Notes under the pieces: model-generated
What the model saw: only the letters and a program-made list of their open reading frames with translations
Databases searched by the model: none
Told to the model about the DNA's origin: nothing
Assembly: GCA_027067785.1 (NCBI GenBank)
Contig: JAMOVL010000041.1
Coordinates: 1 to 32,961, forward strand
Direction: 5' to 3'
DNA: 32,961 nt
Source: Desulfurococcales archaeon
Lineage (GTDB): Archaea; Thermoproteota; Thermoprotei_A; Sulfolobales; Desulfurococcaceae
Shown here: positions 11,393 to 32,961 of the stretch, one piece after another
How positions within the stretch are numbered: the first letter of the stretch is position 1
How the letters are laid out: each line of letters opens with the position of its first letter
Program-made: the position numbers and the translations under genes

Positions 11393-14300
11393 TTACATTC
11401 CAAGCTCTCTTGTTCTCTCGAATAATTCCTTCGTAGCTTCGCCTACTTCTTTAGTGCCTGAGACTAGCTCTGCCGTTTCTGCGGCCTCTGTTTCTGGAGC
11501 CATTGACAGTACTTCTGCTTCTGTTCCTGTCTCCTTGAGCTCTTCTACAGCGCGCTTGTAGACTGCTGCTGGGTCGTAGTAGTAGTTGAAGATTATTCTT
11601 GATACATCCCATACGTTGGTGACTCCCTTGTAGAGCATCCAGTTGAGTATGGTGGCTTTCCTGTAGATCTCGTCGATTATGTCTTCTAGTTCTAGTCCGC
11701 TCTTCATAGCTATATCTCTGAGATGTATGCTTTTCTCCATGTCGATCCTGAAGGCGTCTTTCTTGGGATCCCACTGTGCGATCGTTATGTAGCGGTTGAA
11801 GTCCTCCACTTCTTGTATAACGGTCACTCTTCTCTGTACCTTGACGACACCTTTCTCAATACGTGTGATCACACGGCGTAGATGTATGAATATATTCATA
11901 AGCCTCATATATGTTGGCGGAATATTCATCGGCGGACTCGTCAGCCTCTTAATAGCGTAATCAAGAGTCTCGGCATGGATAGTTGAGTTGTGTGTTAGTA
12001 CTAGTCCTCCTGATATTGCGAACATATGCGTGCCCGGTACTTCGATATCATATAAAAGTGAATCTTTCTCTACGGTCTCTGTACGTATAACTTTATGTAT
12101 GTATAGCCCGTCATATTTCTTGACCTTAGTATAAGTTCTCTTCTTCAATAGTTCCCGCCTACCGAGTATTTCCAGTATTTTAACCTTGCTACTACCGCCG
12201 ATAATCGTTATAACATAGATTATGGATGATTTCTTTGCAAATCCTCTAGTATTATCAACTATTCTTAACGAAGCAAGTATATCCAAGCTTTTCAGAATCA
12301 CGATGATTGATTCGGCAAGTTTTCTATTTACAGTCCGAGCGTTTATACGTATATGTTTGTCTTTATCAACTATTACACTTCCATCTCCATCCCAATAACC
12401 CTCAATAATACCTCTGCGGAAGTCTTCTGGAGCTCTTAGAGCTAAGTCTAGTGGTACGCTACGTTCATAGTCATTGACTTTTCCTTGGAGTATTTCATAG
12501 ATTAGCAGTGCTAATGCTTTGGAATCAACATTTATGAATAGAATGTTGTCCTTCGTTTGTACTACATATATTGCTTCTTCGTCTAGCCCGATCCTTTTCA
12601 GTGTTTCAATGAACTTATTTGCTAATCTGGTGTCTTTACCCGGATATAGTACGATGCGTCTTGGTAGCCCGTCCTTGTCGTCATATTGTATTGTTCCATC
12701 TGCTAGGAAGAATCCTAAGATATAGCCGAAATTCCTGTCTAGTTTGATTCTTATCGGTATGGATCTTCTTCCTTTTTCTCCGTACTTTACTTTTCCATCA
12801 CTTAGCTTATCAGGGTGTATTCCTAGCTCTATGAATAATCTGTAGGGTATTGAGGCTTTTCCATAGTACCAATCATCAACATCACTAATTGATCTACCGA
12901 TCTTGGATGCAGTCTTACGGATTTCTCCTTTTCCATACTCCCTGAGTACTTTACTAGCATTTTCTATGTAGAGCTTGTCACTGTATTTCTCTAGAAGTTT
13001 AACTGCATTGATCTCATTTATTTCTTCATCAGTTAGTGCCAACGTTCTTAATGAAACAAGTAGGTCGCCCTTCTTAAGCTTGTGTGCTGGCTTGGTGGTC
13101 AGCTTTCCGTTCTCGAGGACGATCACTGGATGATTCTCGTGTACTTCATGTACGACGCCTCCTTCGAGATGTATTCTAACGAATCTATTTGATCCGTTCT
13201 TTACTACAACTCTTGAAACGGGTACCCATAGCGGTTTTCCATCTGAATATGTTAGGACTTTAAGATCTTTTACTTTGTTATCTATCACATCTTCGACTAG
13301 TTTTCCTATCTCGTATAGGTCTATACGTCCATTAACAGAAGCTAGTACTAGCTGGTCTCTCGGTAGACATAGGCCTCCGTGTCCTGTGGCTAGTGATTGG
13401 AAGAGCACAAACGCTTCTTCACCGCGAACCTCACCAACAATAATATAGTCAGGACGATAACGCAGGCTCAGCTTTACCAGATCGAACAACCTAATACTCG
13501 TACCACCCGAAGAGCCAACCAGGTAGCTCTCACGGCTCGTAAGCTGCACCCAGTTAGGATGAGGCAGGTTAATCTCAGGAGTATCCTCAACAGTAACAAT
13601 CTTCATACCAGGCTTGATAAACATCGAGATAACGTTTAGCAGAGTGGTGTTGTGGTTTAGCCTCCACCCTATCTGTCCTATGACGAAGTTATGCGTGTCT
13701 TCTACTTCGAAGTCGTAGAGATACTCATTTGTTGGTTCGACTTGTTCGATCCTCAGTATTTTCTCGCAGAATACATCGCCGATAACCAGTGATTCCATCT
13801 TGTCGAGTAGGGCTATTGCCTGGCTACCAGTTTTTGCCTTATAATATCCGATGAAGTCTAGAAGGTCTTCTCTATCAAGAGCTCTATATCCGTGCTCGTA
13901 CTGTCTAACGTATCTACTGGATAGCCCTAGTTCTTTCTCAACACGTTTCTTACCAATGCCGAGCCTACTCCTTATCTCTGCAAGCGCTGGGCCTACAGGG
14001 AATACATCTATGTTCGGGTTGGGCTGAACATCTGCATTATTACCGATAATCTCTTCGATCTTCTCTCTGGATATACTGTATTCTCTGAGCATAGCTATGA
14101 ATCTGGCCGCCTCGGAGCCATATATGATAACTCTGTATAACGGTGTGTTCTTGACAGGTTTTTCTTTGACTACGTGTTTTATACGCATCCTCTTCAGGAT
14201 CAAGGATATGCCGTTGGCGAGATCCTTAGACCTGGTTGAGAACCCAACTATGATCTCGTTCTTGCCGCTGCTCTTCTTGACGTACAGTGATCCATCTGCA

Positions 14301-15916
14301 TCGAATAGCCCGGCTAGGAATGCCTTTAGAACATCCGGATCATTATTGAACAATATTTCTTCGGGTATGCGGACGGTATAGCTCTTCTTTTCATTGAATA
14401 GCTTGGCTAGCTTAGCGGCTAGGTTTTCGTCGTTGAATCTAATGAGTAGTACTTCGTTCCTCTTGTCCACTGTAATATTGGGGGTTTTACCGTATAGTCT
14501 GCGTGCTATACTGATGTATTTCTCCTTAATGCTCTGATCCTTCGTTGTCAAGCATACCGTGGAGCGGTCGAGGTAGCCATCACCTATCCATAAGCCCAGG
14601 AAATATGCTTCCTCGGGCGAAACCCTGTATATACCGCCATAATCAGTGTTAAGCCATACGTTTACGAGGTAGTCTCCCTCTCTTATGTCCTGGGCTGTTA
14701 CAGGTACTAGTTCTAGTGTCTCAGGATCAAGTTTGATGAAGTTGTGGTCTATGGTCGTAGTTATTATTGATGAGTTCGTCACAACCTTCACTAATGCCCT
14801 GTTATCTCTGTGTTTAATGGCGCGAACTATGCGTTTCCATGTTAGCTTGTAGTCGTTATCTATGCTTAGGACCTCGATATTTTCTTCGACATCCTTAACT
14901 ATGTGGTCGCCTACACGGTATTCTCTTGATTTAATCATCTCGTATAGTTCATCGGCACGTACTATGCGTGGCTCCCCGTTTATCCTTGCTATGATAAGTG
15001 TGTCCCCAGGGAAGCTCTTACCGGTACCAGTGCCGCCGGCGATCATTGCTGTTTTGGCGTGTTCGATTAGTTCCCATAGGTAGGCTGCTACGAGTGTATC
15101 GAGTTCTCCGGACTGTATTATCTCTATGACACTGAACGGTCTCTCACGGAACTTACGTATTGTGAAGGTTGGCCCTTTGACTGATACTTCTCTTCCGAAG
15201 GTTGCTGCTAGCCTGTGTTTTTCCGGTAGCATTGCGTCTAGGATTGGAAATGCTATGCTGATGTGTTTGCCAGCCATGTGCGCCATTTTCATGATGAACT
15301 CGTTGAGGTAGTCTTCGTCGAGGAATGTTATGTTGGTCGGTATGCTCTCGTATTTCTTGTGCCATACGTAGATCGGTATGTTTACTCCGTTACAGCTTAT
15401 ATCCTCAATGTTCGGGTCTTTCATGAGCGGGTCTATCGGGCCGTAGCCAAGGAGGTTTCTCTCGATATAGTAGAGTAGCTTGATACGCCTAGCGCCTACT
15501 AGGCCTAGTTTCTGCTTGTACTTATCCGCTATGCGCTCTGCTTCTCTGAACACGTATCCCTTCAGGTCCTTTATGTCCTCGGGCTTTGTAGGCGGCTTGA
15601 TCTCGTCCATCAAGATCTCGGTGAGCTTCTCGAGGACCGCTCTATCTGTTGGTGTCAAACCGTATTCTTCGACAAAATACATTGGGCCCTGCGGTGTCTC
15701 GGCTATAACTACTTTGACGAACGGCTTGTAGACGTAGTAGCTCTCCATTATCCTCCAGCTAGGATCGCGGCGTGCCACCTGTATAGGCTCTGTAGGCATA
15801 ATGACGTGGCGTATAGCCTCCATCTCGGCCTGGCCAGCGCGGAGGCTCCTAGGCTTTCTCTTCTTACTCTTCTTGGTAAATACTCTGCTCTGCAAAATCT
15901 TCTTCAGTGAAGGCAA
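11393..15916 (-). CDS. Type II/IV secretion (archaellum/type IV pilus) ATPase containing two inteins; extein 590 aa
   Basis: 1507 aa; extein AGGTGTGK/TTLLN (Walker A), VTVEDTPEINLPHPNWVQL, YRPDYIIVGEVRGEEAFVLFQSLATGHGGL/STIHAETL (Asp, Walker B and His boxes of GspE/FlaI-type ATPases); TTG start. Confidence 0.9.
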   Translation of the reverse strand: MPSLKKILQSRVFTKKSKKRKPRSLRAGQAEMEAIRHVIMPTEPIQVARRDPSWRIMESYYVYKPFVKVVIAETPQGPMYFVEEYGLTPTDRAVLEKLTEILMDEIKPPTKPEDIKDLKGYVFREAERIADKYKQKLGLVGARRIKLLYYIERNLLGYGPIDPLMKDPNIEDISCNGVNIPIYVWHKKYESIPTNITFLDEDYLNEFIMKMAHMAGKHISIAFPILDAMLPEKHRLAATFGREVSVKGPTFTIRKFRERPFSVIEIIQSGELDTLVAAYLWELIEHAKTAMIAGGTGTGKSFPGDTLIIARINGEPRIVRADELYEMIKSREYRVGDHIVKDVEENIEVLSIDNDYKLTWKRIVRAIKHRDNRALVKVVTNSSIITTTIDHNFIKLDPETLELVPVTAQDIREGDYLVNVWLNTDYGGIYRVSPEEAYFLGLWIGDGYLDRSTVCLTTKDQSIKEKYISIARRLYGKTPNITVDKRNEVLLIRFNDENLAAKLAKLFNEKKSYTVRIPEEILFNNDPDVLKAFLAGLFDADGSLYVKKSSGKNEIIVGFSTRSKDLANGISLILKRMRIKHVVKEKPVKNTPLYRVIIYGSEAARFIAMLREYSISREKIEEIIGNNADVQPNPNIDVFPVGPALAEIRSRLGIGKKRVEKELGLSSRYVRQYEHGYRALDREDLLDFIGYYKAKTGSQAIALLDKMESLVIGDVFCEKILRIEQVEPTNEYLYDFEVEDTHNFVIGQIGWRLNHNTTLLNVISMFIKPGMKIVTVEDTPEINLPHPNWVQLTSRESYLVGSSGGTSIRLFDLVKLSLRYRPDYIIVGEVRGEEAFVLFQSLATGHGGLCLPRDQLVLASVNGRIDLYEIGKLVEDVIDNKVKDLKVLTYSDGKPLWVPVSRVVVKNGSNRFVRIHLEGGVVHEVHENHPVIVLENGKLTTKPAHKLKKGDLLVSLRTLALTDEEINEINAVKLLEKYSDKLYIENASKVLREYGKGEIRKTASKIGRSISDVDDWYYGKASIPYRLFIELGIHPDKLSDGKVKYGEKGRRSIPIRIKLDRNFGYILGFFLADGTIQYDDKDGLPRRIVLYPGKDTRLANKFIETLKRIGLDEEAIYVVQTKDNILFINVDSKALALLIYEILQGKVNDYERSVPLDLALRAPEDFRRGIIEGYWDGDGSVIVDKDKHIRINARTVNRKLAESIIVILKSLDILASLRIVDNTRGFAKKSSIIYVITIIGGSSKVKILEILGRRELLKKRTYTKVKKYDGLYIHKVIRTETVEKDSLLYDIEVPGTHMFAISGGLVLTHNSTIHAETLDYAIKRLTSPPMNIPPTYMRLMNIFIHLRRVITRIEKGVVKVQRRVTVIQEVEDFNRYITIAQWDPKKDAFRIDMEKSIHLRDIAMKSGLELEDIIDEIYRKATILNWMLYKGVTNVWDVSRIIFNYYYDPAAVYKRAVEELKETGTEAEVLSMAPETEAAETAELVSGTKEVGEATKELFERTRELGM
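11987..13369 (-). mobile_element. Intein 2 (461 aa, codons 850-1310) with LAGLIDADG (DOD) homing endonuclease domain, inserted after GHGGL
   Basis: Starts CLPRDQLV, B-block GVVHEVHENHPVIV, DOD motifs GYILGFFLADG and RRGIIEGYWDGDG, F-block LLYDIEVPGTHMFAI, ends VLTHN followed by +1 Ser; removal restores TGHGGLSTIHAETL. Confidence 0.92.
13649..15016 (-). mobile_element. Intein 1 (456 aa, codons 301-756) with LAGLIDADG (DOD) homing endonuclease domain, inserted in Walker A between Lys and Thr
   Basis: Starts SFPGDTLI, B-block TTTIDHNF, DOD motifs AYFLGLWIGDG and KAFLAGLFDADG, F-block YLYDFEVEDTHNFVI, ends RLNHN followed by +1 Thr; removal restores GGTGTGKTTLLN. Confidence 0.92.
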
Positions 15917-23502: not shown

Positions 23503-23558
23503 ATTATCGGCCTTTTGTCAAGGTATAAGAGGATAAATTCATTATTTGGTGAGTGAAT

Positions 23559-24020
23559 ATGCGCGCTATATCGCCTGTTATTGCGACTGTTATTATTGTA
23601 TCTGTTGCGATCGCTATTAGCATTGCTGTGGCGTTGTGGCTCACCGGCATAACAAGCGGATTCACCCAGACGGAGGATTTGCAGATAGTATCGAGCTACG
23701 CGTCAGGAAACTCGACTGCAGGATGGAATATAACACTAATAGTAAAGAACACTGGGACTGTCGCTGCAACTATCGATAATGTCTTTGTTAATGGAAAGCC
23801 ATACAGTTCCCAGGGATTAAACGTATACGTCAACGGCACAGGTACGGGCGGAGTCTTCAAGAAATTCACGTCAACATACACGATCAATCCCGGCGACACA
23901 GCGACAATAAAGGTAGAGATACCCAAGAATACTTCGGGATTCACCGATGGCCAGATGGTTAACGTTAAGATACATACCGCTAGTGGCAGAGACTATCCGG
24001 CGACAGTAACACTTCCATAA
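23559..24020 (+). CDS. Archaeal type IV pilin, tandem array member 1 (P1)
   Basis: ORF track starts at GTG 23553; GGTGAG SD favours ATG 23559. MRAISPVIATVIIVSVAIAISIAVALWLTGITSGFTQTE, ending GQMVNVKIHTASGRDYPATVTLP. Confidence 0.85.
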   Translation: MRAISPVIATVIIVSVAIAISIAVALWLTGITSGFTQTEDLQIVSSYASGNSTAGWNITLIVKNTGTVAATIDNVFVNGKPYSSQGLNVYVNGTGTGGVFKKFTSTYTINPGDTATIKVEIPKNTSGFTDGQMVNVKIHTASGRDYPATVTLP

Positions 24021-24146
24021 ATTTATGTATACAATGATCGTAAGCCTAATATTTTTAAAACTTTTTACACTTTCAAATATTTCCTTCACTTTATAGTAGT
24101 ATTATGAAATGTAATCAATCAATAATACCCTGTGAATACTGAAAGA

Positions 24147-24158
24147 AGTTTTTAAAAC
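24147..24158 (+). promoter_or_regulatory. Putative TATA box for pilin 2
   Basis: AGTTTTTAAAAC about 52 nt upstream of ATG 24210. Confidence 0.4.
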
Positions 24159-24209
24159 AATTAAAGCCATAATATAGAAAGAAAAATAAGACGTATAAGG
24201 TGTAACGCT

Positions 24210-24659
24210 ATGAGAGCTATATCTCCGGTCATAGCAACAGTTATCATAGTGTCTGTTGCTATTGCGATCAGTATAGCTGTTGCATTATGGCTAACTGGTA
24301 TTACCAGCGGTTTTACACAGACGGAGAATTTACAAATAGTATCAAGCTATGCAACAGGTAATTCAACTACGCATTGGACAATAACTCTCCTAGTCAAAAA
24401 CACTGGTACAACCACAGCAACAATAGACAATATATTCATAAACGGTAAGCCATTTAACGATTATACAGGTGTATCTATAAGTATAAACGGAACAACATTT
24501 AATCCTGGAATTACCTATCCTATAAAGCCAGGTGATCATACTAATATAACAATAATTATCCCAGGATCAACTCAAGGATTCACAGATGGCCAGATGGTGA
24601 ATATTAAGATTCATACCGCGAGCGGTAGAGACTACCCCGTGACAGTAACACTACCGTGA
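24210..24659 (+). CDS. Archaeal type IV pilin, tandem array member 2 (P2)
   Basis: MRAISPVIATVIIVSVAIAISIAVALWLTGITSGFTQTENLQIVSSYA ... GQMVNIKIHTASGRDYPVTVTLP. Confidence 0.85.
   Translation: MRAISPVIATVIIVSVAIAISIAVALWLTGITSGFTQTENLQIVSSYATGNSTTHWTITLLVKNTGTTTATIDNIFINGKPFNDYTGVSISINGTTFNPGITYPIKPGDHTNITIIIPGSTQGFTDGQMVNIKIHTASGRDYPVTVTLP
24586..24637 (+). repeat. 52-bp exact repeat, copy A (C-terminal block of P2)
   Basis: ATGGCCAGATGGTGAATATTAAGATTCATACCGCGAGCGGTAGAGACTACCC, identical to 25299-25350. Confidence 0.9.
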
Positions 24660-24852
24660 AACCCGGAAGTACCATATATAATAAAGGTAGGAATACGATG
24701 GCGTTTTCCACTATGTCACACTTTAGGGGGAGACATTGTAATTATTTTTTCTAATCTTGAACGAAACAAACAAGTAATATTTAGAAGACTCCTTTATTAA
24801 CAAAATGCGAATGTTATCAATAAATATAGTGAAAAACAAGAATATTATCTTG

Positions 24853-25000
24853 TAGGTGAATGGTTATGAAGGCTATATCCCCGGTTATTGCTACGGTTAT
24901 TATTGTCTCTGTCGCTATTGCTATTAGTATTGCTGTGGCGTTATGGCTGACCGGTATTACTAGTGGGTTCACTCAGACAGAGAACCTACAAATAGTATCA
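24853..25000 (+). repeat. 148-bp perfect direct repeat, copy A (SD plus signal peptide plus N-helix of pilin 3)
   Basis: Base-for-base identical to 25487-25634 (offset 634); no evident homology immediately upstream. Confidence 0.93.
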
Positions 25001-25372
25001 GCGTACGCGACATGGAATGATACATTAGCTGTTTGGAATGTTACGCTAACAGTAAAGAATACTGGTACCACTGCTGCGACAATAGACAATATATTCATAA
25101 ACAATAAACCAATAACTATATCATCCTCCGAAAGTTATATAGGAAAAGTTATTAATATCACGAAAATAACCATTGATCCCGGTGAGCAATCCATAATTTC
25201 TATATATTTAACAAACTATACTGCTACCAATACTAACCAATTATTCAGTTCTTGGAATATACCGAGTACTGTATTACAGGCGCTATCTGGTTATACTCAT
25301 GGCCAGATGGTGAATATTAAGATTCATACCGCGAGCGGTAGAGACTACCCTGTAACAATAACATTACCATAA
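24866..25372 (+). CDS. Archaeal type IV pilin, tandem array member 3 (P3)
   Basis: ORF track starts at 24860; AGGTGA SD at 24854-24859 favours ATG 24866 (MKAISPVIATVIIVSVAIAISIAVALWLTGITSGFTQTENLQIVSAYA ... GQMVNIKIHTASGRDYPVTITLP). Confidence 0.85.
   Translation: MKAISPVIATVIIVSVAIAISIAVALWLTGITSGFTQTENLQIVSAYATWNDTLAVWNVTLTVKNTGTTAATIDNIFINNKPITISSSESYIGKVINITKITIDPGEQSIISIYLTNYTATNTNQLFSSWNIPSTVLQALSGYTHGQMVNIKIHTASGRDYPVTITLP
25299..25350 (+). repeat. 52-bp exact repeat, copy B (C-terminal block of P3)
   Basis: Identical to 24586-24637. Confidence 0.9.
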
Positions 25373-25486
25373 CCAAAACCCATTATTTTTTAAATTGAAC
25401 TAATTTTAATCAAAATACAGATGAAAAATATAATATTATACATGTATAATAGGATTTAAAATCCTTATAGACAAATAACCTAATCA

Positions 25487-25634
25487 TAGGTGAATGGTTA
25501 TGAAGGCTATATCCCCGGTTATTGCTACGGTTATTATTGTCTCTGTCGCTATTGCTATTAGTATTGCTGTGGCGTTATGGCTGACCGGTATTACTAGTGG
25601 GTTCACTCAGACAGAGAACCTACAAATAGTATCA
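25487..25634 (+). repeat. 148-bp perfect direct repeat, copy B (SD plus signal peptide plus N-helix of pilin 4)
   Basis: Identical to 24853-25000. Confidence 0.93.
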
Positions 25635-26117
25635 AGCTATGCCCAGGTTGGAAACTATTATAACTTTACAGTTAATAATACAAAGCCACTAAACTACACT
25701 TTATTATTTGGAGTAGGTAATTACTACTGGGGTCTCTATACAAACAACTGGACAAGTTTCAATCTAACATACCCGAATGTTGCCAAAGCGACTATTAATG
25801 TAACAAACTTAGTACATGGTTCATCCTGGTTTCCATCGAAAAATGGTACAGATGGATGGGTTATAAGAATAATGATTAAGAATACTGGTACTGTTCAAGC
25901 AACTATCGACAATATATTTATAAATAACGTACCATTATCAAATGCTGCAGGCGTTGTATGCTATAATGGTACATCGGCAAGTATTGCGTCAGGTAAAGAA
26001 CTGCAGATTCTAATATTTCTCGAAAGCGGTACACACTTCTCTTCTGGCCAGATGGTGAATATTAAGATTCACACCGCGAGCGGTAGGGATTATCCGACGA
26101 CGATAACTCTGCCGTGA
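25500..26117 (+). CDS. Archaeal type IV pilin, tandem array member 4 (P4), with about 65-aa N-glycosylation-sequon-rich insertion
   Basis: ORF track starts at 25494; SD favours ATG 25500. Same N- and C-terminal blocks as P1-P3; insertion between the LQIVSSYA block and the IKNTG block. Confidence 0.85.
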   Translation: MKAISPVIATVIIVSVAIAISIAVALWLTGITSGFTQTENLQIVSSYAQVGNYYNFTVNNTKPLNYTLLFGVGNYYWGLYTNNWTSFNLTYPNVAKATINVTNLVHGSSWFPSKNGTDGWVIRIMIKNTGTVQATIDNIFINNVPLSNAAGVVCYNGTSASIASGKELQILIFLESGTHFSSGQMVNIKIHTASGRDYPTTITLP

Positions 26118-27151: not shown

Positions 27152-27298
27152 TGCTTAGACACCATAGATGCGTAAATAACATACAAGCACTAATTATATA
27201 TCTTCGTATCCCGTTGAAATATGAACTAATAAACAAATATATTGTTTGCACCCAAGTGCTCATGAATTGGTTCAAGATCTAAAATGGAGGTGATAGTA

Positions 27299-27928
27299 TT
27301 GTCCAGCTCCAAGACAAGTATTGCCGTCTTAATTATAATTGTTATCATAATAGCCGGAATGATAGGCTACTACATAGGACGTACTAGTACCACTAATAAA
27401 CAAGCAAAGATAACACCATCCAAACAATTAACTACAACCCAGGCTCCCCCTACAAGAACAAATACATTATCAACAACTACGACTACGCCACATGAAAATC
27501 TAGAGGTAATACCGAGCTACCCCATATACACCAAGAATATAAAGTATCTACCAGATAAGAACGCTTACATGGTTCTCGAAAAAGGAAAAATAATTAAGAT
27601 AAAAGGACTAATTAACGGGCTCTCCCACAACGCTACATTAGGCAACGGAACAGCCGGGTGGCTCGTAACAATAGTGATTAAGAATACTGGCCCGATATCT
27701 GCGAGAATAACACAAATATACTTGAATAATATTCCCATAAATAAAATGTTAGGAGTAATCGCCTATAACGGAACAGACACTGTGATAAAACCCGGTGAGA
27801 CCAGAACACTATACATAATCCTCCAAAAGGATGGCACTAAAATAATGTTCACACCCGGCATAATGGTGAATATTAAGATTCACACCGCCAGTGGCAGAAC
27901 ATATCCAACAACAATAGTACTACCATAG
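27299..27928 (+). CDS. Chimeric pilin-head protein (P5): non-pilin membrane anchor plus Ser/Thr-rich linker plus pilin globular head
   Basis: ORF track starts at 27284 but GGAGGTGA 27286-27293 favours TTG 27299: MSSSKTSIAVLIIIVIIIAGMIGYYIGRTSTT..., C-terminal IVIKNTGPISARITQIYLNNIPI...MVNIKIHTASGRTYPTTIVLP matches pilin heads. Confidence 0.75.
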   Translation: MSSSKTSIAVLIIIVIIIAGMIGYYIGRTSTTNKQAKITPSKQLTTTQAPPTRTNTLSTTTTTPHENLEVIPSYPIYTKNIKYLPDKNAYMVLEKGKIIKIKGLINGLSHNATLGNGTAGWLVTIVIKNTGPISARITQIYLNNIPINKMLGVIAYNGTDTVIKPGETRTLYIILQKDGTKIMFTPGIMVNIKIHTASGRTYPTTIVLP

Positions 27929-27953
27929 ATTAAGGTCTATGTACCTTAATCTA
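27926..27953 (+). terminator. Putative hairpin terminator overlapping the P5 stop codon
   Basis: Perfect 11-bp inverted repeat TAGATTAAGGT-CTATGT-ACCTTAATCTA followed by ACATCTTTTTG. Confidence 0.5.
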
Positions 27954-28073
27954 ACATCTTTTTGAACTAAATTACATTCTCCATGCCTAGTAGTAAGGAG
28001 AAACAAACTTCTCAAAAACACCCATACGCCCACCATGACAAAAGGAGAAAAAGAATACGGAATAATCAAAAAT

Positions 28074-29315
28074 TCATGGAGCCCTAATATTAGCAGGATA
28101 CTTGTATCCTGATGACGAATGCACTATTATAGAGTACAACGTCCCAGGCGACACATTAGGCGACACCAACACCAATACAGCTTTCTGACCAGGCATCAAT
28201 GTATATGGTAGTGGATGTCCAATGACGATCACTACTTGAACAACAGGCTCCAAGGCAAAACCTATATCTGAATATAAATGAATATCTAGGGTATTATTGT
28301 AATAATAGTCTTTTTTATCAGTACCGTTATATGAGAGCGTTAAGATATCCTTGTTGTTAAAATCATAGGAAATGATTGGCGTGTTATTAGTATATATTGT
28401 AAACCTATCTATATCAAGACTATAATCAATTTGTATAGGCACACTCCCTATAATTGCGGGTACATCTAATTCTTGAGAATACACTATTACTCTCCATATA
28501 GTTATATTAATAGCATTCGCAACAAGGCTCTTGTATAGCGGAACATTGTCCACAACGGGTTTACCATCCAAGAAGAAGCTTATCCGCCATAAGCTCAAAT
28601 TACTATAAGTATAGATGTTGACCCTTAGGTCATGCCAATTACGAACGGCTACAATACCGTTAAGATCTACGTTTTTAGAATAGAGTGTAACCCATCCGGA
28701 TCCGGATTTATGCAACATTATACTGAGTTGTTTATAATTAGCACAATATGAGACACTTAATGTATATATATTAATTGTGCCATTATTAAATCCAACTTCA
28801 TAGTTAAAGACTAGATCATATGTGTACATAGTGTAATTTACATTACCTCCAACACTATAGCTGAAATTATCATATCTTGCTACATAGTCTATAGTGAATG
28901 ATATCGGATAGGTATAGGTAGTATCAATATATCTACCTATACTCTCGCCACAACCACATTCATTGCTTGCAGTTCCATTTATATTTACATGTATATTTAG
29001 ATAGCCTTTATTCAGGTCTTGCGGGTTAAAGTTCTCCTCATTGACGAAAAAGGCCTTGAAGCCCATCTGGTTGTAGGGCTTATTATCGATGAATATGTTA
29101 TCGATTGTTACTGGGCGTGTGCCCGTGTTTTTGAGGTAGAGTATCATGTAGTAATTGCTGTTATATTTCATACAATATGTATCGTATATGTCTAGTCTCT
29201 CTATACCTGTATAGCCCGTTATAATCCCTGAAACCCATAAGGTGATGACAACTGTGATTGAGAGTGTTACAGCGACTATGATAACTGTTGCCACGAGAGG
29301 GGATAGGGCACGCAT
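28074..29315 (-). CDS. Divergent archaeal type IV pilin (P6) with about 290-aa insertion, possibly LamG/lectin-like
   Basis: MRALSPLVATVIIVAVTLSITVVITLWVSGIITGYTGIERLDIYD...LYLKNTGTRPVTIDNIFIDNKPYNQ ... LYSIIVHSSSGYKYPANIRAP; insertion contains NWHDLRVNIYTYSNLSLWRISFFLDGKPVVDNVPL. Confidence 0.75.
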   Translation of the reverse strand: MRALSPLVATVIIVAVTLSITVVITLWVSGIITGYTGIERLDIYDTYCMKYNSNYYMILYLKNTGTRPVTIDNIFIDNKPYNQMGFKAFFVNEENFNPQDLNKGYLNIHVNINGTASNECGCGESIGRYIDTTYTYPISFTIDYVARYDNFSYSVGGNVNYTMYTYDLVFNYEVGFNNGTINIYTLSVSYCANYKQLSIMLHKSGSGWVTLYSKNVDLNGIVAVRNWHDLRVNIYTYSNLSLWRISFFLDGKPVVDNVPLYKSLVANAINITIWRVIVYSQELDVPAIIGSVPIQIDYSLDIDRFTIYTNNTPIISYDFNNKDILTLSYNGTDKKDYYYNNTLDIHLYSDIGFALEPVVQVVIVIGHPLPYTLMPGQKAVLVLVSPNVSPGTLYSIIVHSSSGYKYPANIRAP

Positions 29316-29484
29316 TATGTCATCATCTAATTAGAAAACGAAGAACATATTCTTAATAATATGAGTGGTATAAGATTACTAACGATATATTATATATAAT
29401 AATATTTGATTAGATTGTAAAAGACTTATATTTTTAATCATTTATTTAAAAATATAACGATCTTGTTTTAGATTTTCGGGTTAG

Positions 29485-29498
29485 GTTTATATAAAAAT
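29485..29498 (+). promoter_or_regulatory. Putative TATA box for the sugar ABC transporter operon
   Basis: GTTTATATAAAAAT about 45-57 nt upstream of GTG 29542. Confidence 0.45.
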
Positions 29499-29541
29499 AG
29501 GAACAATAAAATATTAGAATGGCTCTTTTAGCGGTGGTATC

Positions 29542-30942
29542 GTGTCCCCAGTTAAAACATCTTATCTAGTCGCCGCCTTCATCATAATAATTATAATTGT
29601 TGGTGTTGGTGCATTCTTTGCAGGTCGAGCGACTGCTCCCCTTAAAACCATTACATCACCGATAACATCCTCAGCCCCCGGAACATCAACAACTTCTCCG
29701 GGACAGGAGGAATTGATAATATTCCATTGGTGGACCGCTGGAGGAGAGAAACAAGCTATTGAGAAATTATTCCAAATATATCATGAGAAATATCCCAATA
29801 TAAAGATAGTTCCTAACCCGATACCTGGTGGAGGCGGTGTAAACCTCAAGGCAGTCTTGATGAGCAGGTTATCCGCTGGTATACCACCTGACACATTCCA
29901 GTCACTAAGCGGTGCAGAGCTCAAATCATATGTTGACGCTGGATACCTACAGCCCGTAGACCAGATATGGAAGGAGACTGGCCTCATAAACCATGTACCG
30001 CCTCTCCTGAAGAAGGTGAGCTACTTCTACGGCCACTTCTACGGAGTACCGATAAGTGTTCATAGAGCTAACTGGCTATGGTATAATAAGAAGATCTTTG
30101 ACCAGCTGGGCCTGAAGCCGCCGACAACAGTGCCTGAGCTGCTCCAGGTGTGTAAGACTATTAAGGAGAAAATGCCCAATGTGTGGCCGATTGCTCTTGG
30201 TATGAGAGAGAAATGGGAGATAGTGTTCATATTTGATGATCTTCTACTATACTATGGAGGGCCACAGTACTATCAGAGATTCTACACGGGACGCGTAAAC
30301 TTCAATAACCAGACGGACGTTAAGCCCGTAGAAGAGGCACTTCAGACGCTTGAGACAATGATAAAAGATGGATACATCTATCCGTATAGCGCCTCCCTAA
30401 CATGGGATCAGAGCGTGGCATTGGTAGCCCACGGCAAGGCAGCAATGGTCTTCATAGGGGACTTCGCACTAGGATACTTCCTCGCAAACGGCTATAAGCC
30501 AGGCGTAGACTTCGACGGCGTGCCATTCCCGCAGAAGCCTACAGAAGTATTCCTAATGATAGTAGACGAGTTCACACTGCCGAAAGGAGCTCCTCACGAG
30601 GACGCGGCTATAAAGTGGCTGAAACTACTGGCCGATCCACAGGCGGAGTTCGAGTTCACCAAGATCAAGGGGAGCATTGCGCCGAGACTAGATGCACCCA
30701 CAAACTACCCCGATAAGTTCAGGCAGGAGAACGTTAAATTCTACAGAGAGCATCCGAACCTAGTCATCCCGATGTCAGCCCACGGCGTACTTGCACCACT
30801 GGCCTTCCTGAGAGACTACTTCGACTTAATGGCCCAGTTCGTCACGCAGCCCAACGTCGATCAGACAATACACCAGTTATCACAGCTGTTCGTTAAGGAC
30901 ATGGTTAAAGAACAGAGTGAATGGTACTGGTCACAATCATAA
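29542..30942 (+). CDS. ABC transporter sugar-binding protein (family 1 extracellular solute-binding)
   Basis: 466 aa; N-terminal TM plus Ser/Thr/Pro linker, then ELIIFHWWTAGGEKQAIEKLFQIYHEKYPNIKI.. LSAGIPPDTFQS.. GVPISVHRANWLWYNKKIFDQLGL typical of CUT1 binding proteins; GTG start. Confidence 0.9.
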   Translation: MSPVKTSYLVAAFIIIIIIVGVGAFFAGRATAPLKTITSPITSSAPGTSTTSPGQEELIIFHWWTAGGEKQAIEKLFQIYHEKYPNIKIVPNPIPGGGGVNLKAVLMSRLSAGIPPDTFQSLSGAELKSYVDAGYLQPVDQIWKETGLINHVPPLLKKVSYFYGHFYGVPISVHRANWLWYNKKIFDQLGLKPPTTVPELLQVCKTIKEKMPNVWPIALGMREKWEIVFIFDDLLLYYGGPQYYQRFYTGRVNFNNQTDVKPVEEALQTLETMIKDGYIYPYSASLTWDQSVALVAHGKAAMVFIGDFALGYFLANGYKPGVDFDGVPFPQKPTEVFLMIVDEFTLPKGAPHEDAAIKWLKLLADPQAEFEFTKIKGSIAPRLDAPTNYPDKFRQENVKFYREHPNLVIPMSAHGVLAPLAFLRDYFDLMAQFVTQPNVDQTIHQLSQLFVKDMVKEQSEWYWSQS

Positions 30943-30963
30943 CGGATCGGGGGAGTTGACGCT

Positions 30964-31842
30964 GTGAAGGCCAGCTATAGATATGCAATTATTTTTTTAA
31001 CACCCCTATTCTTTATTCTAGGAATTCTATATTTCATGACTTTCTGGACTATTTACATATCATTCACAAACTGGGTAGGAATGAGGCCTAATTATCAGTT
31101 GGCAGGGCTTAAATGGTATAGTTACATGTTGAGCAGTGACAAGTTCTGGGTTAGTCTTAAGAATAACCTGTTATGGCTTGTAGTCTTTATCGTGCCTACA
31201 GCGATACTTGGTCTGTTAATAGCTTATGTTCTCGAACTATATATTGTCAGGGGAGAATCTATTTACCGCACAATATTTCTTTACCCGACAGCGTTATCAT
31301 TCGTTGTCACAGGAACTCTCTGGGCATGGATATATGATCCCGCCAATGGAGTCATAAACAGCATATTGTCAAGGCTGGGAATAGATACTAGTCATCTAGG
31401 ATGGATCTGTGATCCCAACATAGCGACCTACTGCCTAATAGCTGCAGCAATATGGCAGTATACTGGTTTTGCAATAGTGTTGTTCCAGTCGGCTCTGAGA
31501 GGAGGTTATCTGAAAAGCATTATTGAAGCCGCACTCGTCGATGGAGCGCATGGATGGAGACTATTATGGTATGTGATCGTCCCGAACATACGTTCAGCGT
31601 TCGTAATCGTGGCTGCATTACTCGCAATATTCTCTCTCAAAGTATTCGACCTAGTATACGTGATGACCCAGGGAGGCCCTGGCATCTCAACATATGTACT
31701 GGCTTTCTACATGTACATGGCTACATTCTGGAAAGAAATGGTAAGCCTTGGTGCAGCGATAAGCGTTGTGATCTTCGCGCTCAGCATGATCATAATCATA
31801 CCCTATAGCTACTACGCGCTTAAGAGGTGGTTAATGAAGTGA
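30964..31842 (+). CDS. Sugar ABC transporter permease (MalF-like)
   Basis: 292 aa, 6 TM-like segments, EAA loop IIEAALVDGAHGWRLLWYVIVPNIRSA. Confidence 0.9.
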   Translation: MKASYRYAIIFLTPLFFILGILYFMTFWTIYISFTNWVGMRPNYQLAGLKWYSYMLSSDKFWVSLKNNLLWLVVFIVPTAILGLLIAYVLELYIVRGESIYRTIFLYPTALSFVVTGTLWAWIYDPANGVINSILSRLGIDTSHLGWICDPNIATYCLIAAAIWQYTGFAIVLFQSALRGGYLKSIIEAALVDGAHGWRLLWYVIVPNIRSAFVIVAALLAIFSLKVFDLVYVMTQGGPGISTYVLAFYMYMATFWKEMVSLGAAISVVIFALSMIIIIPYSYYALKRWLMK

Positions 31843-32660
31843 AGCTCCGCACAATCAATATAATAGCCTACATAGTCCTCGGGATCATAGCGGTGCTATG
31901 GCTTGTACCACTATACCTAGCGATCACGACCTCGCTGAAAACATTGAGAGAAGTAAGCGCGATGAACTACTTATCACTACCACGAACACCTGAGCCAAGC
32001 AACTATGTACAGGCATGGAACTCCGGGATAGGTAAAGGCCTGCTCAACAGCATCATTATAACAATACCGACGACAATTCTCTGCGTATTCATAGGGGCAT
32101 GGGCAGGATACTTCTTATCAAGGTTCAGGTTCAGGTACGCACCGCTAATATTCTTTATAACAGCAATAGCAACATTCATACCCTACCAGATAGTATTGAT
32201 CCCCCTCACACAGATAGTAGCATCTCTAAGAATAGGGCAATCGCATCTAGGACTCATCTTCGCCTACACAGTATTAAATGTACCCTTAGCAGCACTTGTC
32301 ACCGCAACATTCTTTACATCGATACCCAAGGAACTGGAGGAGGCAGCATACATAGATGGCTGTGGCCCTGTCAAGATATTCTGGAAGATAATACTGCCAG
32401 TAGCGAAACCCGCTCTAGCTTCAGCGGCTATTCTGGTGTTCACACAGGTATGGAACGAATTCCTCATAGCATTAACGCTATCAACGCCTTCCACGAAGCC
32501 CGTAACACCAGTAGTTGCAGAGCTCAAAGGAAATTACGTAGCTCAATGGAATATTCAGATGGCAGGCGCTATACTAGCTATACTTCCTCCTTTAATCCTC
32601 TTCCTCCTAATGGGTAAATACTTCATAAGAGGGCTCCTCGCAGGAACCCTCAAAGCTTGA
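31827..32660 (+). CDS. Sugar ABC transporter permease (MalG-like)
   Basis: 277 aa, EAA loop LEEAAYIDGCGPVKIFWKIILPVAKPA; overlaps upstream gene. Confidence 0.9.
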   Translation: MVNEVKLRTINIIAYIVLGIIAVLWLVPLYLAITTSLKTLREVSAMNYLSLPRTPEPSNYVQAWNSGIGKGLLNSIIITIPTTILCVFIGAWAGYFLSRFRFRYAPLIFFITAIATFIPYQIVLIPLTQIVASLRIGQSHLGLIFAYTVLNVPLAALVTATFFTSIPKELEEAAYIDGCGPVKIFWKIILPVAKPALASAAILVFTQVWNEFLIALTLSTPSTKPVTPVVAELKGNYVAQWNIQMAGAILAILPPLILFLLMGKYFIRGLLAGTLKA

Positions 32661-32675
32661 TAGGGGTGTGTAAAA

Positions 32676-32961
32676 ATGGCTAGGGTTGAGGTCAGAAATC
32701 TATTGAAAAGGTTCGGGAAAGTAGTAGCAGTAAACCATATAACATTCACTGTTGACGACGGCGAGTTCTTCGTACTTCTGGGCCCCTCTGGTTGTGGTAA
32801 GACGACGACTCTTAGATGCATAGCTGGGCTTGAGGATCCCGATGAGGGTGATATAATTATTGATGGTAAGAGAGTGAATGATCTCCCTCCCTACAAGAGA
32901 GATATAGCAATGGTGTTCCAGAACTACGCGCTATACCCGCACATGAAAGTATACGATAACC
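32676..32961 (+). CDS. Sugar ABC transporter ATP-binding protein (MalK-like), truncated by window end
   Basis: [95 protein letters not shown]; Walker A and Q-loop. Confidence 0.93.

Follow-up and report, generated by a model that had tools for sequence, protein, structure and literature searches.

The closest described systems to the protein reported here are ArlF and ArlG (FlaF and FlaG), stator proteins that arose by duplication of an archaellin and carry a membrane helix. ArlF attaches to the S-layer, and the stator is regarded as unique to the archaellum (PMC8667602). According to the paper on the Aap pilus, it is unknown if that pilus is led across the S-layer by a protein complex (PMC11178815). 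The accessible part of a census of archaeal type IV pili reports solitary PilA genes and additional, unexplained components in Desulfurococcales, and that part contains no mention of a pilin head on a non-pilin anchor (PMC4858521). We found no description of such chimeras in the literature searched, the coverage of which is incomplete.

The window (the whole stretch of 32,961 nucleotides that was analysed) comes from a heat-loving archaeon and carries, in order, a type IV pilus locus, four tandem class III pilins (P1 to P4), a K+ channel gene on the other strand, the gene considered here (P5), a reverse-strand pilin and a GlcS-like ABC transporter (Table 1). The reverse-strand pilin is a protein of 413 aa with a head interrupted by an insertion of about 270 residues, and the family has further large, pilin-like proteins that carry long additional domains (G062, G067, G075). 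Close to the 3' end, about 27 nucleotides are nearly identical in P2 to P5, a pattern suggestive of either recent exchange or strong constraint. The pilus ATPase (11393-15916, reverse strand) is 1507 aa long because it contains two inteins with LAGLIDADG homing-endonuclease domains, one within the P-loop and the other after LATGHGG; the homologue in G062 has 598 aa and no inteins.

Congeners are arranged differently on either side of the channel gene. A single pilin adjoins the channel in G062, and in G060 one pilin follows the pilus genes, at a contig end; in the window, four tandem class III pilins (23553-26117) stand where one was found in these two genomes. Lacking beyond the channel in G060, G062 and G063 are P5, the reverse-strand pilin and the transporter, with other genes found there, so that P5 has no orthologue at the syntenic place in these congeners. 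In the window, P5, the reverse-strand pilin and the transporter replace an HD-domain gene and others, and the region 27152-32961 is, judged by comparison with congeners, a lineage-specific insertion or rearrangement.

Table 1. Features of the P5 region, in window coordinates.
Feature	Position	Strand	Basis
P1-P3, class III pilins of the array	23553..25372	+	ORFs, BLASTP
P4, class III pilin, closest relative of the P5 head	25494..26117	+	BLASTP, tree
Shine-Dalgarno-like GGAGGTGAT of P5	27286..27294	+	sequence
P5, tethered pilin-head protein, 209 aa (TTG start)	27299..27928	+	ORF and start context
N-terminal membrane helix of P5, not pilin alpha-1, no class III site	27308..27388	+	motif search, HMM, AlphaFold
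Disordered Ser/Thr-rich linker of P5	27389..27493	+	AlphaFold pLDDT < 50 for residues 32-66; composition
PilA-type beta-sandwich head of P5	27494..27928	+	BLASTP, AlphaFold, Foldseek, tree
Terminator-like hairpin 3' of P5	27926..27953	+	consensus match only
Reverse-strand class III pilin, large insertion in head	28074..29315	-	ORF, BLASTP, head-profile search
Sugar-binding protein compared with the P5 N-terminus	29542..30942	+	

The P5 reading frame is intact, with two in-frame candidate starts, ATG at 27284 and TTG at 27299, and is closed six codons above the ATG, from which the protein would count 214 residues. The GGAGGTGAT motif is spaced from the TTG much as GGTGA is in the pilin genes, and the ATG overlaps the motif. 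Because GGAGGTGAT suits the TTG, the coordinates 27299-27928 of the initial annotation are retained. The channel gene is divergent, the reverse-strand pilin convergent, and a terminator-like hairpin follows the stop; thus, P5 is predicted to be transcribed alone. An identical, intact copy was identified in a second assembly, which may derive from a related sample. The gene is known from these two assemblies of one species only, and a scan of genome contigs with P5 alone gave matches in the same species only.

The C-terminal part of P5 is a pilin head. BLASTP aligns it with the adjacent pilin P4 at 48.6% identity over 111 aa (E 2e-30) and with P1, P2 and P3 at 39-47% identity; with the last 25 residues of the reverse-strand pilin the identity is 40%. 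The homology begins at residue 71 (ATG numbering), directly after alpha-1 of the pilins, where HENLEVIPSYP of P5 aligns with TENLQIVSSYA. AlphaFold2 divides P5, in the same numbering, into a helix (9-35), a linker (36-70) and a head (71-214), with pLDDT mostly 80-94 in the head, which has the PilA-type beta-sandwich of type IV pilins. The top structural matches in Foldseek are archaeal type IV pili, the closest being the Aap pilus of S. acidocaldarius (8q30, E 9e-5), followed by Pyrobaculum pili, and the bona fide pilin P4, searched as a control, returns the same top matches. Overall TM-scores of P5 are low, probably owing to the flexibility of helix and linker with respect to the head. The FlaF-FlaG structure 6pbk ranks 12th among the P5 matches (TM 0.50 by target length) and scores about as well with P4, which points to a shared fold and not to a specific relationship of P5 with the stator. 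No Pfam or NCBIfam family scored above threshold for P5.

The N-terminus is not that of a pilin. The class III site, searched as [KRDE][GAS][ALIFQMVEDS][ILMVTAS] (FlaFind type), is absent from P5 with either start codon, and no prepilin signal was identified in any of the three frames upstream, which leaves neither a hidden site nor an upstream prepilin exon as a candidate. Archaeal prepilin processing depends on G, A or S at position -1, preceded by a charged residue at -2 (PMC4371748); P5 has K-T-S, with T at -1. An HMM of pilin alpha-1 gives 81-84 bits with real pilins but -4.5 bits with the P5 helix in the ATG form and 3.6 bits in the TTG form. A conserved hydrophobic alpha-1 joined directly to the head is also lacking, as the disordered linker intervenes. 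The initial annotation had described P5 as a chimera, a pilin head without class III signal or pilin helix, tethered by a different membrane anchor, and had noted that another fold or a misassigned start would speak against this. The sequence comparisons and structure prediction agree with that description on each of these points, with membrane tethering as a prediction.

It had further been proposed that the P5 anchor came from the neighbouring sugar-binding gene, by domain swapping within the locus. The resemblance of the two N-termini is visible, but weak and not robust to the choice of start: a profile of solute-binding-protein N-termini gives the ATG form 26.5 bits (4 of 1000 block-preserving shuffles score as high), the TTG form 14.6 bits (57 of 300 shuffles) and a true pilin 16.1 bits. 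We do not rely on this score, since it falls with the better start codon and is then equalled by those 57 shuffles. No DNA similarity between the P5 anchor and the sugar-binding gene was detected beyond chance words of 14-18 nt, and no solute-binding domain was identified in P5 by Pfam. The sugar-binding gene is therefore not supported as the source of the anchor; the likeness appears generic, limited to the general plan of a membrane helix followed by a Ser/Thr-rich linker. The part of the proposal that stands concerns the head, which by its sequence relationships does derive from the pilin array of its own locus, as sister to P4. The sugar-binding protein itself has no class III site (KTSY); such a site is present in 24 of the 58 solute-binding proteins that were sampled from the family.

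Searching 216 genomes of the order with a head profile (14 rows) gave matches in 100 genomes. In Desulfurococcaceae, where N-termini were read for most of the matches, the majority of those read are class III pilins. A membrane helix that is not of class III type, followed by a linker and a full head, was identified in G081 (162 aa), G067 (174 aa) and G083 (149 aa from the likely start), and more diverged cases were found in G069, G093, G091 (two) and G064. The architecture thus recurs in at least three other genera of Desulfurococcaceae. The initial annotation had proposed a search for it beside pilin arrays in other genomes; it was found in other genera, but wherever the neighbouring genes were legible it lay apart from the pilin loci. 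In those cases the genes are stand-alone and mutually non-syntenic, and some are on short contigs. An archaellin-like gene (L200:12142-12783) lies about 2 kb from the tethered head of G081. A separate arrangement, a helix with two tandem pilin-type heads, is conserved in G080, G081 and G082 (L141, L140, L142), again with no class III site and away from the pilin locus. G027, which belongs to a different family within the order, has a short ORF (L209) in the neighbourhood of several class III pilins; its product has a membrane helix lacking the usual class III motif, and its match to the pilin head is weak (E 1e-7).

The surroundings of these genes bear on the possibility that P5 is a tethered beta-sandwich without a pilus function, whose head was recruited to bind S-layer, glycan or substrate in the manner of a solute-binding protein, possibly with the neighbouring sugar transporter. 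P5 shares the general form of anchor and linker with archaeal solute-binding proteins and adjoins a GlcS-like ABC transporter, and the G069 case adjoins an opp-type operon with a solute-binding protein. However, the cases in G081, G067 and G083 have no transporter neighbour, and repeated recruitment of an organism's own pilin head, with its sequence retained, is more easily explained by a pilus-related ligand. We consider this reading unlikely.

One of the relatives complicates the question of processing. The G067 protein starts with MNEAIVFF and passes a loose site rule (EAIV), although its helix is not a pilin helix, and on its sequence we regard this case as ambiguous. It can be cited for the view that P5 is a cryptic minor pilin, cut at the non-canonical K-T-S and entering the base or tip of the pilus with the linker as a hinge, as can the window's sugar-binding protein, which shares the K-T-S motif, and the class III sites in the solute-binding proteins sampled. 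Genuine class III signals are carried by some crenarchaeal solute-binding proteins, for which assembly into a bindosome has been proposed (PMC2910488). This view is harder to hold than the preceding one, and we judge it quite unlikely, given the T of P5 at a position that requires G, A or S (PMC4371748), a helix that does not fit the pilin HMM, and a disordered linker of about 36 residues between helix and head, unlike known pilins.

The tethered heads do not form one family. In a tree of 55 heads (IQ-TREE, 109 columns, several long branches), the P5 head groups with P4 of its own genome (94/85), and the G067 head with a pilin of its own genome (86% identity; 100/99). The G081 head falls inside the pilins of its own genus (97/95), and the G083 head is with pilins of its own genus and others (85/81). 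The fewest changes that the tree requires are eight, and the starred branches force at least four. AU tests reject a clade of all 12 anchored heads, a set defined by architecture (p 4e-5), and a clade of the best four, a set picked after viewing the tree (p 2e-72). A single common origin in one ancient tethered-head family is thus rejected by tree and AU test, on 109 columns with several long branches. At the DNA level, the similarity of anchored genes to a pilin gene begins at the helix/head junction and ends at or near the stop: nt 202-525 of the G067 gene match pilin nt 106-429 (82.8% over 325 columns), and similarity starts at nt 205 in G081 (pilin nt 115) and nt 157 in G083 (pilin nt 91). 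We hold the architecture and the recurrent origin of tethered pilin heads, taken together, with high confidence.

The heads are under purifying selection in the pairs that could be measured. Between the G067 head and its own pilin, dN is 0.087 and dS 0.765, and the two-head proteins of G080 and G081 give dN 0.19 and dS 1.46; these pairwise values describe overall constraint, with branches not separated, and P5 and P4 are too diverged for such a test. The dS of 0.77 in G067 also argues against an assembly chimera in that genome, for which the estimated contamination is 7%. Constraint of this kind, with dN well below dS, together with independent recurrence, argues for selection on the architecture and weighs against P5 being a functionless remnant left when pilin genes were duplicated and rearranged in a variable region. 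The P5 region does vary between congeners and the head has diverged from the four tandem pilins, as a leftover might, but the ORF is intact, has a good ribosome site and is identical in two assemblies; this explanation seems to us very improbable. Repeated independent joins in relatives instead suggest that a fixed copy of the pilus subunit, outside the fibre, is useful to the cell.

The sequences show P5 to be a duplicated, local PilA-type pilin in which the class III signal and the filament-forming alpha-1 helix have given way to an ordinary signal-anchor helix and a flexible Ser/Thr-rich linker of about 36 residues. P5 should then stay in the membrane, outside the filament, since known processing and assembly need a prepilin-peptidase site and a packing helix, which it lacks. 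The linker would reach roughly 10-12 nm at most (an estimate), and this short tether would keep the head in the space under the S-layer. There it would most likely bind the usual partners of a pilin head, either adjacent heads where the pilus is rooted or the S-layer where it emerges, and would in this way anchor, guide or cap the pilus, by analogy with ArlF/ArlG in the archaellum. That P5 is a non-polymerising, membrane-tethered pilin head at the pilus base, of a construction that arose several times in Desulfurococcaceae, is a reading to which we give close to an even chance; action at the pilus base, taken by itself and argued from that analogy, we put forward a little more tentatively.

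Among the roles suggested in the initial annotation, that of a filament anchor is possible and is the one we prefer, while a subunit regulator, which P5 may also be, is less favoured. The third suggestion, a virus-related decoy or altered receptor, would have the cell-bound head compete with pili, or replace them, as an attachment point. Several viruses need PilA pilins to infect Sulfolobus islandicus (PMC7217056), and an arms race could produce the repeated, lineage-specific gain and loss seen here. The short tether, however, would hold the head under the S-layer, and no defence genes were noticed next to P5, and we give this role little credence. Some evidence also runs counter to a core role for the filament anchor: the anchored genes are orphans without shared synteny, present in some species and missing from others, whereas for a core component of the pilus, as for ArlF/ArlG, conservation within an operon would be expected. 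With this patchy, orphan distribution, an anchor that is accessory or serves under particular conditions is a better fit than an essential stator.

A broader generalisation is that Desulfurococcaceae repeatedly make dedicated envelope anchors for type IV pili by placing their own pilin head on a signal-anchor and linker, a convergent, pilus-side counterpart of ArlF/ArlG in which the head is renewed as the pilin drifts; we regard it as speculative and somewhat improbable. Recurrent, non-polymerising tethered heads provide concrete candidate genes for passage of the pilus through the S-layer, and some of the genomes, G080 and G081 among them, are single-contig. They also represent a repeated natural experiment, in which replacement of one helix turns a filament subunit into an envelope protein.

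Compared with known systems, P5 resembles the PilA-family pilins of Sulfolobales and Desulfurococcales (Aap, 8q30; Pyrobaculum, 6w8u and 8fk7) in the sequence and fold of its head, and differs from them in having no class III signal, no filament-forming alpha-1 and an added disordered linker. With the membrane-anchored archaeal solute-binding proteins of bindosome type it shares the N-terminal plan of a membrane helix and a Ser/Thr-rich linker, but not a solute-binding domain, a class III site or DNA similarity to the neighbouring member. The likeness to ArlF/ArlG lies in an N-terminal membrane helix with a beta-sandwich of archaellin/pilin type, found in both P5 and the stator, and in an origin by duplication of a filament subunit; ArlF/ArlG act in the pseudoperiplasm. 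Unlike them, P5 has a head nearly 50% identical to a local PilA pilin, no NCBIfam ArlG match and a Ser/Thr-rich linker, and it stands alone outside an arl operon, between the K+ channel gene and the reverse-strand pilin. The stator is conserved, whereas the P5 architecture is lineage-specific and recurrent. With ArlF/ArlG as precedent, the anchored pilin head can be viewed as the head of a filament subunit turned into an envelope-anchored protein.
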